Under the pieces are notes generated by a model that searched no databases, was not told the origin of the DNA, and saw only the letters and a program-made list of their open reading frames with translations. Source: a virus. From it: a DNA stretch of 28,714 nt. Below are positions 4,200 to 26,180 of the stretch, piece by piece (positions within the stretch are counted from its first letter, which is position 1; each line of letters opens with the position of its first letter). The stretch covers positions 1 to 28,714 of IMG/VR virus record IMGVR_UViG_3300036857_000183; one strand, given 5' to 3'. Position numbers and translations under genes: made by a program.

Positions 4200-5263
4200 G
4201 GCGCCGCCAGGAGCGAGAGTTGGGAGAGCCGCTCGGCCGTCATCGCGCAGTAGGCGGCCGACACTTCGATGAGGACCGCCCGGCGCCCGAGTGCGCGGGC
4301 CGACCATCCGGTAGTGCCGGTTCCGGCGAAGGGATCGAGGACGATGCCGCCCTCGGGGCAACCGGCGCGGATGCACCGGGAGGCGAGCTCGGGCGGAAAG
4401 ACCGCAAAGTGAGCGCCGGGGAAGGGCTTGGCCGGTATCTCCCACACGGAGCGGACGTTGCGCCCCTCGGGGTGCGGCCACCGCTCTCCATCTCGATGTT
4501 GAAGGGAGCCGGACTGGCCGAGCACGGTGGTCTTACGGCGGCCGTCTGCTCCTCGCGGCGCCTCGCCTTCGGAACCGTCCAAGGTCTCGGCTTGCACGGT
4601 GAAGCGGGAGCGGTGGGTGCCGCCTTGCGGTCCGTTCTCCACTCCGGCCTCTTCGCGGGCTCGCCCGAGCGGTTGCTCCTCGGTGGGCGTGAGCCGCTGT
4701 TGGGCTCGGGCCACGTAGGGCTCCCGGACCGCCTCTTGGTCAAAGTGGTAGCTCGGTGCCCGCGTCAGGAGAAAGACGTACTCGTGGGCGTTCGTCGGCC
4801 GGTCCTCGGCGGACTCGGGCATGGTGTTGGGCTTGCTCCAAATCACATCGGCTCGGAGCCACCACCCGTCCGCCTGGAGGGCGAGGGCGACCCGCCAAGG
4901 GATGCCCACGAGGTCTTTTCGCTTGAGCCCGGCGGGGATGGGCACTGGCCCGGCTCGGCGCGGGGAGGTGCCGCCGGTGACCTTGCCGCTTCCGGCGTAG
5001 GTGTCTCCGAGTACGAGCCAAGCGGTGCCGTCTCGGCGGAGCACCGGGCGTAACTCGCGGAACACCTCTACAAGCGCGTAGGCGTAGGCGTCCGGGCTCG
5101 CCTCGTGCCCGAGTTGGCCGGGCACCCCGTAGTCTCGGAGCCGCCAGTAGGGCGGGGAGGTGACCACGCAATGGACGGACTCCTCCGCGAGCTCCGGGAG
5201 CACGTGGCGGCAATCTCCGTGGTAGAGCGTCACGTCCGGGTCTTGGAGGTAGGGCGCCCTCAC
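4196..5263 (-). CDS. DNA (N4-cytosine/N6-adenine) methyltransferase, beta class
   Basis: A 355-residue DNA_methylase (N6_N4_Mtase) family protein. Motif IV is TSPPYW (35-40). The SAM-binding motif I, DPFAGTGTT, is near residues 310-318, and the target-recognition region lies between, so the order IV-TRD-I marks the beta class. The early motif VTLYHGDCRHVL is also typical. GTG start overlapping the SLOG gene stop (GTGA). No restriction endonuclease gene is adjacent, so it is most likely a solitary phage methylase that protects phage DNA from host restriction or marks regulatory sites. A roughly 90-residue charged insertion (about 195-280) is probably the recognition domain. The modified base and target sequence cannot be read from the sequence. 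Confidence 0.9.
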   Translation of the reverse strand: MRAPYLQDPDVTLYHGDCRHVLPELAEESVHCVVTSPPYWRLRDYGVPGQLGHEASPDAYAYALVEVFRELRPVLRRDGTAWLVLGDTYAGSGKVTGGTSPRRAGPVPIPAGLKRKDLVGIPWRVALALQADGWWLRADVIWSKPNTMPESAEDRPTNAHEYVFLLTRAPSYHFDQEAVREPYVARAQQRLTPTEEQPLGRAREEAGVENGPQGGTHRSRFTVQAETLDGSEGEAPRGADGRRKTTVLGQSGSLQHRDGERWPHPEGRNVRSVWEIPAKPFPGAHFAVFPPELASRCIRAGCPEGGIVLDPFAGTGTTGWSARALGRRAVLIEVSAAYCAMTAERLSQLSLLAAP

Positions 5264-13345: not shown

Positions 13346-14218
13346 TCACACGTCCCTCGGCGGCCACGGCGCCACGGCGCCCGAGGTCCCGGCGGCGTAG
13401 TCGTAGAGCACTTGGTCATAGGTGCCCGCCGCCTTGACCGCCGGATAGGTGCCGTACTTGGTGAGGAGCGTGGCGTAGGTGAGCGGTGGGCGCGGCTTGT
13501 AGACCCTCGGGTCCGGCCGGTCAATCTGGACGGCTTGACAGGAGAAGCGCCGCTCGGGCCGGGTCGCCACCCGGCTCACCCGAGCGATACTCCACCCGGT
13601 CATGATGAGGTACATGTTGCCCGGGCCTTGCTCGGGGAGAGTGCGGAGGAGCACGGGCACTCCGTTGCCGAGAGCGTCCCGAGCCTTGATGCCGGAGTCG
13701 CCATCGAGCGTGACAAAGACGAGCTCGGCGTTGGGCGTCCACGCCAAGTCCGCCGTCACCACCGGGCTCCGCCGCTCAAGGACTCGGTGCAGTCCGAGCG
13801 GTTGCTCATAGGCCATCGGGTCAAGTTTCTCGACGGTCACGGGTTGCGAGTTGAGCGGCCGGGTGAGGTCGGTGAGCCACGGATCGAGGCTCGGCGGAGT
13901 GACGGTGATGGGCACCGCCGAGGCCGAGGCCGCTTGCGAGCCGTCCGCCTTGTAGACGGTGGCCGTGTAGGTCATCGGCACTCCAAAGGGCACCTCAAAG
14001 TCCCGGAGCACCACCGTGGTGGGCGCGGACGCAATCACCATCGCGTAGCCCTGCCGGACGTAGGCCACCGTCCCCGAGGGACCGACGCGGGAGATGTCCA
14101 ACCGCTCGGTCCCGGCGGGGACACCCACGGTGACCTTGACCGCCTGCACCGGCGTCTCGATGGCGAGCGCGATGGTGGGGACCGGAAGCGCGAGAGGTGC
14201 GGGCTCGGCCGCCATCAC
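13346..14218 (-). CDS. Distal-tail-like minor tail protein
   Basis: A 290-residue protein directly after the tape measure, the usual site of the distal tail (Dit) protein. It has beta-rich repeats (VPTIALAIETPVQAVKVTVG, a fibronectin-III-like segment VPFGVPMTYTATVYKADG) and a C-terminal domain ending in YDYAAGTSGAVAPWP. The stop of the tape measure overlaps the GTG start; an ATG follows immediately and may be used instead. The role is inferred from order; no diagnostic motif is seen. Confidence 0.65.
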   Translation of the reverse strand: MMAAEPAPLALPVPTIALAIETPVQAVKVTVGVPAGTERLDISRVGPSGTVAYVRQGYAMVIASAPTTVVLRDFEVPFGVPMTYTATVYKADGSQAASASAVPITVTPPSLDPWLTDLTRPLNSQPVTVEKLDPMAYEQPLGLHRVLERRSPVVTADLAWTPNAELVFVTLDGDSGIKARDALGNGVPVLLRTLPEQGPGNMYLIMTGWSIARVSRVATRPERRFSCQAVQIDRPDPRVYKPRPPLTYATLLTKYGTYPAVKAAGTYDQVLYDYAAGTSGAVAPWPPRDV

Positions 14219-17200
14219 GCGACTCCGTTGCTCGCCGCGAGCAGGACGCGAGCGGTGGCATCCCCGGCTCGGCGCACCTCGGTGCGGACGATGCCCTTGA
14301 GCTCGGTCTCACCGATGAACACCCGCACCTCAAGGTTGGGCTCGGCCGCCGCCTCGGGTTGCATCGCGGTCATGAGTTGCCGGAGGTTGTAGAGCGGCGG
14401 CGGTGCTCCGGCCAGGGCTCCCGTCCCGGAGCTCGCGCCCGCCCGCAGTCCGGCCGCCGGAGCGAGGGCTTGCATCGGTCCCGGCGCCCATGCCGCCGCC
14501 ACCTCGGGGGTCGCGCTCTTGAAGATGCCGGAGACCTTTCCCACCGCTCCGCCAAGCCTGCCGCCAATGCCTTTGATGGCCGCTTTGATGGCGTCCTTGA
14601 TGAGCTTGCCGAGCCCGGCAAGCCCGGCCACGATGGCGTCCCGAATCCACGTTCCCACCTCGGTGAACCACTTGACGATGGTGGCCTTGTTATCCACGAG
14701 GAATTGCCGGGCCTTGTCCATCCATCCCCACACCCCGAGTGCGAGCCCGGCCATGCCGTCCACGATGGCGTCCTTGATCCAGCCGCCCACGCTCGCGCCC
14801 CACGCCTTGACGGTGGCGATGCCTTGAGCGAAACGGTCCCCGATCTTGGCCACGACGGCCCACACCCCGGAGGCAATGCCGGTGGCGGCGTTGACCACCG
14901 CGTCCTTGATCCAGCCGCCGACCTTGGCGCCCCACTCCACGATGGCCGATGCCTTGCGGGCGATGGTCTCGCCTATCCGCTCAAGGACGGCCCATACGGC
15001 CGTGGCCACGCCGGTGAGGGCGTCTACCACTCCGTCCTTGATCGCCTGCCCCACCGCTCGGGCGGCTCCGGTCACCTTGTCCACGGCGCCGGTCAGTACG
15101 CCGAGCACGGCCTTGATGCCGTCCGCGATGGCGCCCTTGATGTCATCCCAATGCTTGACGATTCCCACGAGGATGAGCCCGAACGGGCCGAGGATGATGC
15201 CCGCCACGACGTACTGCCAATTGGCCTTGAAAAAGTCGAGTACCCATTTCGCGCCGTCCACGATGGCGCCAAAAAGCTTGTCGATGATTTCGCGGAAGGT
15301 CTCCGATTTCTTATAAGCGATGACCATGCCGACCGCGATAGCGGCGAGCGCCACGGGCACGAGGAGGAGCGGGGCAAAGCTCGCGTCCAAGAGCCATTGC
15401 ACGGCCGTCCATGCGGCGGTGGCGGCCTTCACCACGGCCGCTCCGGCGGCATACGCCTTCATCCCGATATTGACCGCGACGATTGCCCCGGCCAAAGCGG
15501 TGAAGGCAATTACGAGGGCGCCGGTCGCACCCTGGTGCTTAGTGATGAGCTCGAAAAATCGGAGCATGGCGGCGTTGAGCCGCTTCTGAGCGGGCAGGAG
15601 TTTCGTGCCCATAGCGGCGGCCGTGTCCTCGGTCCGGGCCGCAATGATCCGTTGCTGATTTGCCACCCCGGTGGAGGTGCGAGCGAAATCTCCCTGGGCG
15701 TCGCCGGTGTCCTTGAGGATGATGGAATAGGTGGCCGCCGCTTTCTGCTCGGCGGTGAGTTGCTTGGTAACAGCCGAGCTCGCCTTTTTCGCGGCGGCCT
15801 TCGCCTTGGAGAGTTGCTCTTGGGCGTCCTTGGCGGCGGCGGCCGTCTCCGTGTTTCGCTTCTCGGCCACGTCGAGGCGAGCCTGGGCGGCGGTGAGCCG
15901 GGCGGTGGCGGCGGCGTCATCGCGGCGAGCGGTCTTGAGCCGGGCCTGTACCGCGAGCAGGTTTTGGACGGCCACCCGCACTTGGTCTTGGGCCTTCGCG
16001 TAGGCGGCCTGGGCGGCGGTCACTCGACGGCTCGCCTTGTCCGCTTCATCGTCGGCCTGGGCCGCCGCCTTCTTCGCGGCAACCACGTCGTCCGAGCCCT
16101 CGATCCCCTTGCGCTCGGCGTCGGCCAAGTCGGAGGCAACGTCCCCCCGCTTCTCCTGGGCCTCCTGCAAGGACCGCTCCGCCTCCGCGAGCGAGAGCGC
16201 CGCCTCGCGCTTATCGAGGTCCGTGCTCTCGGAGTCGGCGGTCACCTCCGCGAGCCGTTGCCGGGCTCGCTCCACGCCGATGGAGGCTCGCTCCTCGGAG
16301 AGGGCGGCGTCCCGGGCCGAGTCCTTGAGCGCCTCTAGTTGCTCGGTCGCTCGCTTGCGGGCATCGGTGAGCGCCTCTTGCGAGGCTCGGGCGTTGTCCT
16401 GGGCGGCGCGGAGAGCTTGCTTGGCGGTGCGGAGAGTGTCCGTCGCCTTCTTTTGCCGGTCCTCGGCACTGCTCACTTGATCGGCCGCCACCTTGGCCCG
16501 AGCCTGGGCGACCGAGAGCGCCTCCGAGCTCGCCTTGGCGTTTTTCTGCGCGGCCGTCACCGCGTCGTGGGCGGCGGCCAATTGCCGCTCGGCCGCCTCG
16601 TGCGCTCGCGTCGTGGCGGCGGCGGTGGCCTGGGCGGCGGAGAGGGCGGCCATCGCAGGCTTGACGGAATCGGCGCCCTTGATGAGGCCGAGGTTGAGCG
16701 CCTCTTGCTGGATACGAGCTTGCGAGAGGAATACGCCGAAGCGGCGGAGCGGCTCGGTCTCCCCGGCGAGCCCGGAGCGGATCGCGTCCAACGTCTCCTC
16801 GGGGCTCGCGTTGTTGAAGCTCGCCATATCCGAGCCGAGTTGCACCATCCGCTTGCTCATTTGGGCCGCCTCTTTTCGGGCGAAGCCCATCGGCACGAGC
16901 ATGTTTCCGAAGGTGCCCGCCGCCTCTAGCGCCTGCCGCCGGGACTGCCCCATGGCGGTAGCGGCCGTCTTGGACCACTCCACGAGCTCCTTGCCGTTGC
17001 GGCCGAACACCACGCCGGTTTTGTTCACTTGCTCGGAGAGGTCGGAGGCAGCGTCTATCGCCTTGTGGGCTCCGAGCGCCACGAGCCCGAGCCCGGCGAG
17101 GGCGGGCACGAAAGCCTTTTGGAATCCGGCGCCCACGCTCTTGAGCGGAGCGGCGAATCCGTCCCGGAAGGACTTGCCCGCCTTGTCCCCGGCGGCCTTG

Positions 17201-17334
17201 GAGCGCCCGGCCGCCGACTGGCCCACCTCCTGCATCCCGGAGGTGACATCGGCCCGCACCTTGTCCAAGCCTCGGCGGATGCCGGTGGGATCGAGCGATA
17301 CGTCTACGTAGGCGGTGCCGACGGTCCCGGCTAT
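14215..17334 (-). CDS. Tape measure protein, apparent ATA start
   Basis: About 1039 residues, setting tail length and helping DNA entry. The N-terminus has a canonical tail-tape segment (KAIDAASDLSEQVNKTGVVF, then KTAATAMGQSRRQALEAAG, FNNASPEETLDAIRSGLAGE, LRRFGVFLSQARIQQEALNL). A long Ala-rich coiled coil follows (about 210-500), then membrane-like helices (ALVIAFTALAGAIVAVNIGM and LLLVPVALAAIAVGMVIAYK), four 44-residue repeats and a Gly/Ala-rich end. No ATG, GTG or TTG lies between an in-frame stop and 17268, yet the frame upstream is clearly protein (TAYVDVSLDPTGIRR). The ATA at 17334 overlaps the previous stop (ATAG) and has GGAGGT nine bases before it, so it is the likeliest start; TTG at 17268 is the fallback. 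Confidence 0.88.
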   Translation of the reverse strand: MAGTVGTAYVDVSLDPTGIRRGLDKVRADVTSGMQEVGQSAAGRSKAAGDKAGKSFRDGFAAPLKSVGAGFQKAFVPALAGLGLVALGAHKAIDAASDLSEQVNKTGVVFGRNGKELVEWSKTAATAMGQSRRQALEAAGTFGNMLVPMGFARKEAAQMSKRMVQLGSDMASFNNASPEETLDAIRSGLAGETEPLRRFGVFLSQARIQQEALNLGLIKGADSVKPAMAALSAAQATAAATTRAHEAAERQLAAAHDAVTAAQKNAKASSEALSVAQARAKVAADQVSSAEDRQKKATDTLRTAKQALRAAQDNARASQEALTDARKRATEQLEALKDSARDAALSEERASIGVERARQRLAEVTADSESTDLDKREAALSLAEAERSLQEAQEKRGDVASDLADAERKGIEGSDDVVAAKKAAAQADDEADKASRRVTAAQAAYAKAQDQVRVAVQNLLAVQARLKTARRDDAAATARLTAAQARLDVAEKRNTETAAAAKDAQEQLSKAKAAAKKASSAVTKQLTAEQKAAATYSIILKDTGDAQGDFARTSTGVANQQRIIAARTEDTAAAMGTKLLPAQKRLNAAMLRFFELITKHQGATGALVIAFTALAGAIVAVNIGMKAYAAGAAVVKAATAAWTAVQWLLDASFAPLLLVPVALAAIAVGMVIAYKKSETFREIIDKLFGAIVDGAKWVLDFFKANWQYVVAGIILGPFGLILVGIVKHWDDIKGAIADGIKAVLGVLTGAVDKVTGAARAVGQAIKDGVVDALTGVATAVWAVLERIGETIARKASAIVEWGAKVGGWIKDAVVNAATGIASGVWAVVAKIGDRFAQGIATVKAWGASVGGWIKDAIVDGMAGLALGVWGWMDKARQFLVDNKATIVKWFTEVGTWIRDAIVAGLAGLGKLIKDAIKAAIKGIGGRLGGAVGKVSGIFKSATPEVAAAWAPGPMQALAPAAGLRAGASSGTGALAGAPPPLYNLRQLMTAMQPEAAAEPNLEVRVFIGETELKGIVRTEVRRAGDATARVLLAASNGVA
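14600..15050 (-). repeat. Four 44-residue repeats in the tape measure
   Basis: Units begin IKDGVVDALTG, WIKDAVVNAATG, WIKDAIVDGMAG and WIRDAIVAGLAG and recur about every 132 bases. 44 residues is four 11-residue turns, the normal grain of tape-measure helices, so unit gain or loss would change tail length in steps. Confidence 0.7.
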
Positions 17335-17714
17335 GACCTACTCACCTCCCGAAGCTCGGCGGAGCCTTGCCGAGCGATGGCCGCAAGCCCGGGGAGGCGG
17401 ACAACCGGCACCGGCTCGGGCTCCTGCTCGCGGGCGCCCGGCCGCTCCACCTTGAGCGGCTCGTAGGCCACCCGCCGCTTGCCCGAGTTGGCCTGCACGA
17501 AGGCCCAAAGGTGGGCGTGGACGAGCTCAAGCGTCTGCGCGGCTAGCTCTAGCTCGGGCGGCCATCGTTCGGCCACCGCCGTGAGCACGGCCGCCCATAG
17601 CTCGGGGTCCTCCTCAAGAGCGAGAAGCTCCCGAGGCGGGATGCCCGTTTGTACCGCTACCCGAGCGATTAGCTCACGCCACTCATTGGAGCCCCGGCCG
17701 TTGCTTCCGTGAGT
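17331..17714 (-). CDS. Tail assembly chaperone, frameshifted downstream part
   Basis: This frame has no usable start and lies -1 relative to the gene before it, with long overlap, as in the G-T pair of lambda and most siphoviruses. It is read as an extension of the upstream chaperone: roughly SNEWRELIARVAVQTGIPPR, then an acidic helical domain (ELWAAVLTAVAERWPPELEL, QTLELVHAHLWAFVQAN) and a Pro/Glu-rich end. The left limit is the stop just before the tape measure. The right limit here is only nominal, because the slip site is not fixed; the frame is open back to 17927. Confidence 0.7.
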   Translation of the reverse strand, partial: THGSNGRGSNEWRELIARVAVQTGIPPRELLALEEDPELWAAVLTAVAERWPPELELAAQTLELVHAHLWAFVQANSGKRRVAYEPLKVERPGAREQEPEPVPVVRLPGLAAIARQGSAELREVSRS

Positions 17715-18061
17715 TGCTCCACGGCCGGGTCCCGAGGGCGCCCGTTCTCTTCCACCTCCTCGTCCACTCTCGGAATCTCCCCGAGCGCCATCCGGCGGGC
17801 GTCCTCGTCGCCCTCCATCACACGGCGGGCCAAGGCCACGTCCTCGGGTGCGGCCGAGATGTCCTCCAGCGTGGTGAGCCACACGTCGAGTGGCTCCTCC
17901 ACGCCGAGGGCTCGGTGGACCACCCACGCAATCTCGCGGATGGTCTCCGGCATCATCTTGCCGCCGTACTCATCGGAAAAGGCCACGAGCGTGGCGGGAC
18001 GGGAGGCGTTGACCACCTCGGCTCTCCCGTCTTGGTGAATGACGGCTACCTCAAGCCTCAC
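17669..18061 (-). CDS. Tail assembly chaperone, upstream part
   Basis: A 130-residue protein between tail tube and tape measure. N-terminal beta strands (VAVIHQDGRAEVVNASRPAT) precede helices (PETIREIAWVVHRALGVEEP, then LDVWLTTLEDISAAPEDVAL). This is the abundant G-type chaperone that coats the tape measure during assembly. The GTG start has GGAGGTGA upstream. A -1 shift near its 3' end yields the longer GT form. Confidence 0.75.
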   Translation of the reverse strand: MRLEVAVIHQDGRAEVVNASRPATLVAFSDEYGGKMMPETIREIAWVVHRALGVEEPLDVWLTTLEDISAAPEDVALARRVMEGDEDARRMALGEIPRVDEEVEENGRPRDPAVEQLTEATAGAPMSGVS

Positions 18062-24464: not shown

Positions 24465-24619
24465 CGACTCTCTCCTCTCTCCTCGCGGAGGAATCCGCGC
24501 ACGAGGTCAAGTAGCTCGATGAGCGCAAGGCGGAGCCGCACCTCCACCGAGAGCCTCGCGTCCGAGCCCTCGTCATTGGCCCAATCCGCCGGGCCTTGCG
24601 GATGCTCGTGCTCACTCAC
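24461..24619 (-). CDS. 52-residue protein between endolysin and portal
   Basis: Reads MSEHEHPQGPADWANDEGSD then ARLSVEVRLRLALIELLDLV and RGFLREERGESR. An acidic head precedes one amphipathic helix (VEVRLRLALIELLDLVRGFL) and a charged tail. GTG start overlaps the endolysin stop by eight bases and its stop overlaps the portal (ATGA). The helix is amphipathic rather than a membrane span. It could be a portal-side accessory, or a lysis accessory given its neighbour. Confidence 0.6.
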   Translation of the reverse strand: MSEHEHPQGPADWANDEGSDARLSVEVRLRLALIELLDLVRGFLREERGESR

Positions 24620-25820
24620 CGGGGAACCTCACGCGGGCGTAGCCGCGCACCTCGGACGGGTAGCGCGTTCGCTTGTAAGCGCCGCCGCCGTTCGACTGAG
24701 AGCCCGAGGTGCCGGGAGAGGTGTTGCCGCCGTAGGTCAGTGTGTTCGATCCCGAGAAGCCGCGGACCGTCTCCACGTGGACGCCATAGCCGCCGATGAC
24801 CACGAGGTCTCCGGGCTTGACCTTGGAGCGGTCGGTCGTCCATCCCTTGAAGCACCCGGCGCCCTTGCGGGCGTAGTCCTCGATGCTCGCCACCGAGGCC
24901 ATCCACGAGCCGAGCCCGGCCACGTTTCCGGCCTGGAGCCCGTAGAAGCACCAACACCCGCACCACGGTTGCCCGATGAGCCACGAGTCGCCATCGGCCG
25001 TGTGCACCTCGGCGGTGCGGATGCCGTCCGAGCGGTTGTCAGTGTTGGAGCCCGCCGGTTGCTCGGTGTAGCCCACCCGCTTCTCGTGATGGTCCATCAC
25101 CGCGTCCCGGCCACCGCCCGAGCCCGGCACCTCGGCGCCCTTGTAGAGCTCGATCGAGCGAGCGTCCCAAGCCCACTCGTGCTTGCCCTCGGCCTTGGCC
25201 TGGAGCAAGGCGGAGTGGGTGCTCTTGCCGTAGTGGCCTTGCGGCGGACTCCCGCCCGAGCCCTTGATTCCCACCGCGTATTGGAACGCTCGGCACCCGG
25301 TCTCGGCTTGCTCCCCGTACACGTTGGTGAAGTCCTGCCACCCGATGAAGCCCGCTCGGGAGAGCACCCGCTTGACCGCGAGGCAATCATCTCCACTCAT
25401 GGGGTAGCGGTGCTCCGGGTCGTAGCCCGGTCCCCATAGGTCACGCTTGAAGGCGAACGAGGGCGGCTCTCCCGGCACCTCTCCCTCGTAGAGCTCGGTC
25501 GAGTAGGCGTCCCACGCGGGCTCGCCGGTGTGACCGGCTCGCTCGGCCTCGCGGAGTGCCTCGTGGGTGCTCTTGCCGTAGTGGCCTTGCGGAGCCCCGC
25601 CGTCTCCGCCGGTGATGCCCACCGATTGCTGAAACGCCTTGCAAGCCGTCTCCGTGTCCTTGCCGTAGACGTTGGTGAAGTCCGTCCACGGCAGGAATCC
25701 GGCCCGCGAGAGCACCCGCTTGACGGCAAGGCAATCGTCGCCGCTCATGGGGTAGCGGTCGTGAGGATCGTAGGCCGGTCCCCACAAGTCCCGATAGAAG
25801 GGCGGGCCGGTCTTACTCAC
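24612..25820 (-). CDS. Endolysin: two peptidoglycan-binding repeats plus CHAP-like amidase/peptidase
   Basis: A 402-residue endolysin. Two near-identical cell-wall modules (about 8-112 and 124-228) each run DLWGPxYDP, YPMSGDDCLAVKRVLSRAGF, FTNVYG, AFQ, GHYGKSTH, a PG_binding_1-like pattern. The C-terminal catalytic part (about 240-402) is CHAP/NlpC-like: GQPWCGCWCFYGL with Cys287 as likely nucleophile, GYGVHVETV with His348 and YGGNTS (363-368). It cuts peptide or amide bonds in peptidoglycan. There is no signal peptide, so a holin is needed. The GTG start overlaps the previous gene (GTGA); the frame is open to 26177, but that part is the shadow of the basic gene. Its place between terminase and portal is unusual. 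Confidence 0.88.
   Translation of the reverse strand: MSKTGPPFYRDLWGPAYDPHDRYPMSGDDCLAVKRVLSRAGFLPWTDFTNVYGKDTETACKAFQQSVGITGGDGGAPQGHYGKSTHEALREAERAGHTGEPAWDAYSTELYEGEVPGEPPSFAFKRDLWGPGYDPEHRYPMSGDDCLAVKRVLSRAGFIGWQDFTNVYGEQAETGCRAFQYAVGIKGSGGSPPQGHYGKSTHSALLQAKAEGKHEWAWDARSIELYKGAEVPGSGGGRDAVMDHHEKRVGYTEQPAGSNTDNRSDGIRTAEVHTADGDSWLIGQPWCGCWCFYGLQAGNVAGLGSWMASVASIEDYARKGAGCFKGWTTDRSKVKPGDLVVIGGYGVHVETVRGFSGSNTLTYGGNTSPGTSGSQSNGGGAYKRTRYPSEVRGYARVRFPGE
25105..25799 (-). repeat. Tandem 348-bp duplication in the endolysin
   Basis: Two in-frame copies, 116 codons apart, encode the cell-wall modules (FYRDLWGPAYDP and FKRDLWGPGYDP). They keep long identical DNA stretches (such as the codons for YPMSGDDCLAVKRVLSRAGF), so the duplication is probably fairly recent and could recombine. 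Confidence 0.8.
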
Positions 25821-26110
25821 CGCTTGCTCCTCCGCGAGCTCCGCCGTCGCTTGCCGCCGCCCTTGCCTTTGCGGTAGCCCGGCCGGGTCACGGTGCCCCG
25901 CTTGCGGCCGACTGTCGCCACCGTGTTGCCCCACTTCCGCCGGACCGCTCGGGCCACGTGGGTGTAGCTCCCCGAGGTGCCGGACTGAGCCGCCCGAGCA
26001 AGAGCGTTGCGAGCTCGCTTCGGGGTGTCTATCGGGTAGCGGCGGCTCCTCGGATAGGCGAAGGCCGAGGGCGGGAGCTTTCGGCGGCGGGCGGCTCGGA
26101 GCGGTGCCAT
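25817..26110 (-). CDS. Small basic head-region protein
   Basis: A 97-residue protein with very high Arg/Lys. The first half has LPPSAFAYPRSRRYPIDTPK followed by RARNALARAAQ, close to a recurring motif of small phage and prophage structural proteins (FAxPxxRxYPI..ARAAL). The end (KGKGGGKRRRSSRRSKR) is a basic tail suited to DNA. ATG start; its 70-base leader carries copy 2 of the 25-bp element. A role in DNA condensation or capsid decoration is inferred. Confidence 0.7.
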   Translation of the reverse strand: MAPLRAARRRKLPPSAFAYPRSRRYPIDTPKRARNALARAAQSGTSGSYTHVARAVRRKWGNTVATVGRKRGTVTRPGYRKGKGGGKRRRSSRRSKR

Positions 26111-26135
26111 TAGGCGGACTACCGAGAGGATAGGC

Positions 26136-26160
26136 GGCAGGATTCTGCACGTCCACCCCG
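26136..26160 (-). repeat. 25-bp element, copy 2 (before the basic protein)
   Basis: Minus strand CGGGGTGGACGTGCA, three bases, TCCTGCC. 22 of 25 bases match the copy at 28030-28054. It lies in the 70-base gap between the terminase and basic-protein genes, about 26 bases before the ATG. Confidence 0.7.
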
Positions 26161-26180
26161 GTTAGCGAAGGCGTCACTCG

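Follow-up and report, generated by a model that had tools for sequence, protein, structure and literature searches.

A probable AUA start codon in the tape-measure gene of a G+C-rich phage, and candidate AUA starts in other phage genes

Introduction

The bacterial genetic code as tabulated by NCBI (table 11) includes ATA among the possible start codons, and most gene finders accept only ATG, GTG and TTG. Genes that begin with AUA are therefore liable to be shortened or given a false start.

The closest described systems come from Staphylococcus aureus, in which the AUA starts of infC, ccpN and citZ were found by Ribo-Ret and re-annotation; those of infC and ccpN carry extended Shine-Dalgarno (SD) sequences, and that of ccpN is conserved also in Bacillus subtilis (PMC13009471). 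Reporters with non-canonical starts gave approximately 10% of the AUG output, rising to as much as 30% for ccpN in rich medium (PMC13009471). For Escherichia coli, a passage of PMC12864459, citing Hecht 2017, places the efficiency of ATA at 1% or less of that of ATG, and an ATG-to-ATA allele of rpoS lowers the amount of protein up to 5-fold (PMC12864459). A second relevant group of systems is formed by overlapping genes: AUGA overlaps couple translation (PMC6728339), and NTGA is the commonest overlap spacing (PMC12548453).

The locus described here combines features of both groups. It lies in an IMG/VR virus record of 28,714 bases with a G+C content of 68%, the whole of which is referred to as the window, and it concerns the tape-measure protein (TMP) gene, which appears to begin with ATA. 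Like infC, ccpN, cvfC1 and citZ of S. aureus, the TMP gene has an AUA (or, in that set, AUU) start together with a strong extended SD, and the unusual start is conserved between species, as it is for ccpN and cvfC1 (PMC13009471). Unlike those genes, it is a structural gene of a high-G+C phage, has an AUAG overlap and is known from its sequence. Coupled ATGA/TGATG pairs likewise share bases between start and stop (-4 spacing) and have the SD inside the upstream gene (PMC6728339, PMC12548453), whereas the overlap in the window is ATAG, with a UAG stop, a non-NTG start and putative coupling. The rpoS allele, from E. coli O104:H4, is also a case of ATA replacing ATG, with reduced protein, but it arose in laboratory cultivation (PMC12864459), whereas the ATA of the window has been kept in evolution. 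A literature search, with most subscription journals outside its scope, returned no prior report of AUA starts in phages or TMP genes or of AUAG overlaps; neither an AUAG overlap nor a conserved AUA start in a structural gene of a phage seems to have been described so far.

Results

The tape-measure gene and its start site

The minus strand of the window carries the structural genes, among them the terminase large subunit, the portal, tail proteins, a G/GT-like pair and the TMP gene; all coordinates below are on this strand. The TMP gene with the proposed ATA start occupies 14215..17334, an open frame of about 1,039 codons in which the ATA is followed by 1,038 more codons until the stop at 14215. 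Its product matches phrog_4197 (E=1e-31, the match beginning at residue 7) and other tape-measure families, and is 42% identical over 1,129 columns to the TMP of the L004 contig, which has an ATG at the same place. The assigned role is supported by the profile match and by the location after G/GT in the tail module.

An ORF that resembles tail assembly chaperone G (17669..18061) immediately precedes GT and TMP and is conserved in the related contigs L088, L089 and L003; it is named by its position and has no match in PHROG. The GT-like extension (17331..17675) is shifted by -1 against the frame of G and lacks a start of its own, an arrangement seen in all four related contigs; as a listed ORF, the GT frame spans 17331-17927. 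GT is likely reached by a programmed -1 frameshift from G, as the arrangement of the frames suggests. No obvious classic slippery heptamer is seen in the pair.

Around the TMP start, the minus strand reads ...CTTCG GGAGGTGA G TAG GTC ATA GCC GGG ACC GTC GGC ACC GCC TAC GTA GAC... An in-frame TAG (17340-17338) closes the TMP frame upstream and is followed by the single codon GTC and then by the ATA (17334-17332), so that the stop lies two codons before the ATA. The last two bases of the ATA also belong to the TAG (17333-17331) that ends the GT frame, which creates the ATAG overlap. The first in-frame ATG, GTG or TTG is the TTG at 17268-17266, 22 codons past the ATA. The SD, GGAGGTGA (17349-17342), is an 8-nt match to the tail of 16S rRNA that ends 7 nt before the ATA, and the GGAGGT motif ends 9 nt before it. 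In each of these respects, namely the preceding TAG, the 22 codons free of standard starts, the GGAGGT nine bases upstream and the ATAG overlap with the previous stop, the first-pass annotation had described the site correctly.

As a sense codon, ATA is rare in the window, accounting for 6 of 4,642 codons (ATC: 122). A special tRNA reading ATA was considered; no tRNA genes were found in the window. The GTC at 17337 was rejected as a start for TMP, L088 having GCG at that position.

Conservation of the site among relatives

A scan of viral contigs with the TMP N-terminus retrieved four contigs. The nearest relative, L088 (IMGVR_UViG_3300036857_000394; its full contig is L098), has a portal 71% identical to that of the window, compared with 52-55% for the L089 (IMGVR_UViG_3300010362_000063) and L004 contigs. 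Gene order is collinear between the window and L088, and, judged from their sequences, the two are sisters. The start region of L088 reads GCGGGAGGTCCAGCG ATA GCT GGC TCT GTC GGA ACC, and its GT frame ends CAG CGA TAG; SD, ATA and ATAG overlap are thus all present as in the window, and in neither phage does the interval from the upstream stop to the conserved N-terminus contain an ATG, GTG or TTG. At the corresponding site L089 has TAG ATG GCC, and L003/L004 have CTG ATG GCG. Alignment of homologous tape-measure starts, a check proposed at the outset, places the ATA of the window opposite the ATA of L088 and the ATG of L089 and L003, the N-termini being I-AGTVGTAYVDVSLDPTGIRRGL (window), I-AGSVGTAYVDVELDPTGIRRGL (L088), M-AGKVGTAYVDTELDPSGIRKGL (L089) and MAAGKVGTAVVDTELDPTGIKKGL (L003).

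The interval from the ATA to the first standard start (17266..17334) is under purifying selection. Comparison of the window with L088 over the 22 codons after the ATA gives 15.0 synonymous differences for 19.3 sites and 4.0 nonsynonymous differences for 46.7 sites, and synonymous sites are saturated in this region. Together with the alignment to the N-termini of ATG-starting relatives, this bears out the earlier impression that these codons are a genuine TMP N-terminus. The AUA has therefore been kept across species past synonymous saturation, in one sister lineage only. Because its second and third bases are shared with the GT stop, part of their conservation could stem from that stop. The ATA may have been derived long ago from ATG, which the outgroups L089 and L003/L004 carry, and the two ATA codons may descend from one change.

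The L088 contig stops within the first approximately 70 codons of TMP. A megablast search of phages yielded no copy nearly identical to the window from any other sample, and a search for the exact start-site pattern matched unrelated DNA only. Profile scans of viral contigs with G, GT and the TMP N-terminus returned the same four contigs and no more, and one scan of a genome collection found only distant prophage-like relatives with other N-termini.

Candidate ATA starts in other phages

TMP loci were also collected by matches inside the gene, and of the 80 obtained a single one has no standard start ahead of the conserved region. This locus, L040 (IMGVR_UViG_3300014656_000442), reads GGAGGTGA GCC ATA GCC ACG CTG; here too the stop of the preceding gene overlaps the ATA as ATAG. 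In alignments, this ATA falls opposite the TTG that starts the PV036453 TMP (AGGAGGTGATAAC TTG TCG ACA TTA) and, if a gap of two residues is allowed, opposite the ATG of L108. An in-frame ATG occurs four codons after the ATA, 18 nt beyond GGAGG. In the public record PV036453.1 (L112, Syntrophomonadaceae phage IMGVR 15540650), the TMP is annotated at 1585, about 28 codons late; homology and the AGGAGGTGATAAC TTG arrangement indicate a TTG start at 1502.

Viral contigs were also scanned for AGGAGGTGA followed after 2-7 nt by ATAGC, with at least 120 matches. Among the matches listed, clean gene starts that immediately follow the end of a long ORF are found in L116, L196, L183, L198 and L171; the first two belong to portal families, and L183 and L198 are 44% identical to one another, have no family and both begin with ATA. 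Two Sak4-like genes, L143 and L169, which are 51% identical to one another, likewise both begin with ATA. A 1,018-codon TMP (L230) has no standard start for 42 codons, and its residue 1, the ATA, lies opposite the GTG at which the TMP of Geobacillus phage TP-84 starts. In L124, a terminase small subunit, the ATA is aligned to the GTG start of phi-SsuSSJ27_rum, and for the L123 portal the alignment pairs the ATA with the MT835491 ATG, allowing for a gap of two residues. Two RuvC-like resolvase genes (L139 and L160, 96% identical) have an ATA at SD spacing; the nearest upstream standard start is an in-frame GTG inside the SD.

As a control, frames of at least 150 codons with a stop a short way upstream and a free N-terminus were counted in each register among the listed matches to SD plus ATAGC: 4-9 qualify in the ATA frame, compared with 0 and 1 in the other frames. 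Some of the listed matches lie inside longer genes or in short frames that occur by chance, and no frequency follows from the listed cases, since they were chosen by that same pattern. When codons at SD spacing were tallied without bias over all collected loci, the numbers were too low and, in G+C-rich DNA, too noisy for an enrichment to show; the comparison of frames is the stronger of the two tests. The aligned starts show, at the level of sequence comparison, what appears to be a recurring use of AUA in phage genes.

Discussion

The combined evidence points to the ATA at 17334-17332 as the TMP start codon in use, presumably read by the initiator fMet-tRNA, with a probability of approximately 87%. 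Points that weigh against it are the single sister lineage, whose contig carries only the beginning of TMP, the in-frame ATG shortly after the ATA of L040, and the very low efficiency of ATA cited for E. coli (PMC12864459). The first-pass annotation had left three options for the ATA of the window: a non-standard start, a recent change from ATG and a single-base error. The first stands; the other two are disfavored because the ATA is shared with the divergent sister L088, so that the same change would be needed in both contigs. It is true that the window is an IMG/VR virus record, possibly a metagenome assembly, and that ATG occupies the site in L089 and L003/L004, as would be expected if the true base were G. 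However, the contig with the same ATA is independent, and a G would turn the GT stop TAG into TGG in both phages, which makes an assembly or sequencing error exceedingly improbable. A recent loss-of-start mutation, lowering expression and still unpurged, would take a single transition from ATG, and the rpoS allele illustrates that ATA lowers output (PMC12864459). Yet the two phages that share the ATA diverged long enough ago for synonymous sites to be saturated, so the ATA is old rather than recent, unless it arose in parallel, and such a mutation is accordingly judged highly unlikely.

The remaining alternatives concern where, or how, ribosomes enter the TMP frame. Initiation at the TTG at 17268, with the 22 codons before it untranslated, had been named as one of the outcomes that would overturn an ATA start; it is the first standard start of the frame, and the capsid gene of the window also uses TTG. 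Those 22 codons nevertheless evolve as coding sequence, being under strong purifying selection and alignable with the N-termini of ATG-starting relatives, and L088 has CTC in place of the TTG, its own first standard start being an ATG at a different position, about 29 codons after the ATA. Initiation at the TTG is thus scarcely credible. TMP might instead be a fusion product of ribosomes that reach the end of GT and there shift by -1 into the TMP frame; the two frames stand in a -1 relation and already overlap, and the GT extension is itself probably the product of a -1 shift. But the P-site codon before the UAG is TCA in the window, CGA in L088 and CCA in L040, none of which re-pairs after a -1 slip, and in the window the in-frame TAG lies so close, two codons upstream, that a slip has almost nowhere to occur. 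On these grounds the fusion is rejected as having very little chance of being correct, and the ATG relatives require no such shift.

With the ATA as start, the initiator tRNA would pair with the A and the U and face an A instead of a G at the third base, producing a C-A mismatch that could be offset by the strong SD, GGAGGTGA, anchoring the 30S subunit. The SD lies at functional spacing in both the window and L088, and its predicted duplex energy is -16.2 kcal/mol in the window, -15.6 in L040, -11.5 in L088 and -10.6 and -11.3 in ATG relatives. The SD of L088 is therefore weaker than that of the window and not stronger than those of its ATG relatives; compensation by the SD fits the window and L040 and is not visible in L088.

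Conceivably, ribosomes that finish GT re-initiate at the AUAG, a form of termination-reinitiation coupling that would constitute a UAG version of the AUGA/UGAUG overlap. Few ribosomes should arrive at the GT stop, given that GT is offset by -1 from G and has a start codon of its own in none of the four phages. A tail needs a few copies of TMP, and a weak start together with the small number of ribosomes shifting from G to GT could keep it at this low dose. The arrangement might have arisen from an ancestral ATGG, in which one G-to-A change would have converted ATG to ATA and at the same time created the GT stop TAG; L089 still has ATGGCC, one base away from ATAGCC.

The AUA start is probably weak and is of a kind that gene finders miss. 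A lowering of TMP expression by AUA is plausible by analogy with the S. aureus and E. coli data, although any regulatory meaning is held with much lower confidence than the start codon itself. More broadly, AUA might be a recurrent, selected and dose-limiting start in phages, used for tape-measure, portal, terminase small subunit and recombination proteins, accompanied by strong SDs, missed by gene finders and, in some TMP genes, coupled through AUAG to a frameshifted GT. This generalization is tentative and is given somewhat less than an even chance. If AUA starts are indeed selected in phages, the choice of start codon would provide another dose control for proteins with few copies per virion.

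In the public record of Streptococcus phage Javan124 (L233, MK448847.1, 590), the annotated start of the terminase small subunit is a GTG that lies within the gene's own SD, and alignment to a relative places it at an ATA 9 bases later; this would be an example of the misannotation expected from gene finders limited to standard starts.

Homology checks, where they could be made, gave standard starts for the remaining genes of the window with the exception of GT. The start of the capsid gene varies across four phages (TTG, GTG, GTG and ATG). The gene after it has an apparent CTG start, within CTGA, in the L004 and L089 contigs (in L100, reverse complement, near base 5,035, and in L099 near 18,940), the window having GTG and L088 ATG; in L004 the TGA of this CTGA is the stop of the upstream gene. 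Finally, a 521-codon ORF between terminase and portal (24612-26177) has two matches to endolysin families, one near the N-terminal third and one at the C-terminus; a lysis gene would be unusual at this location.
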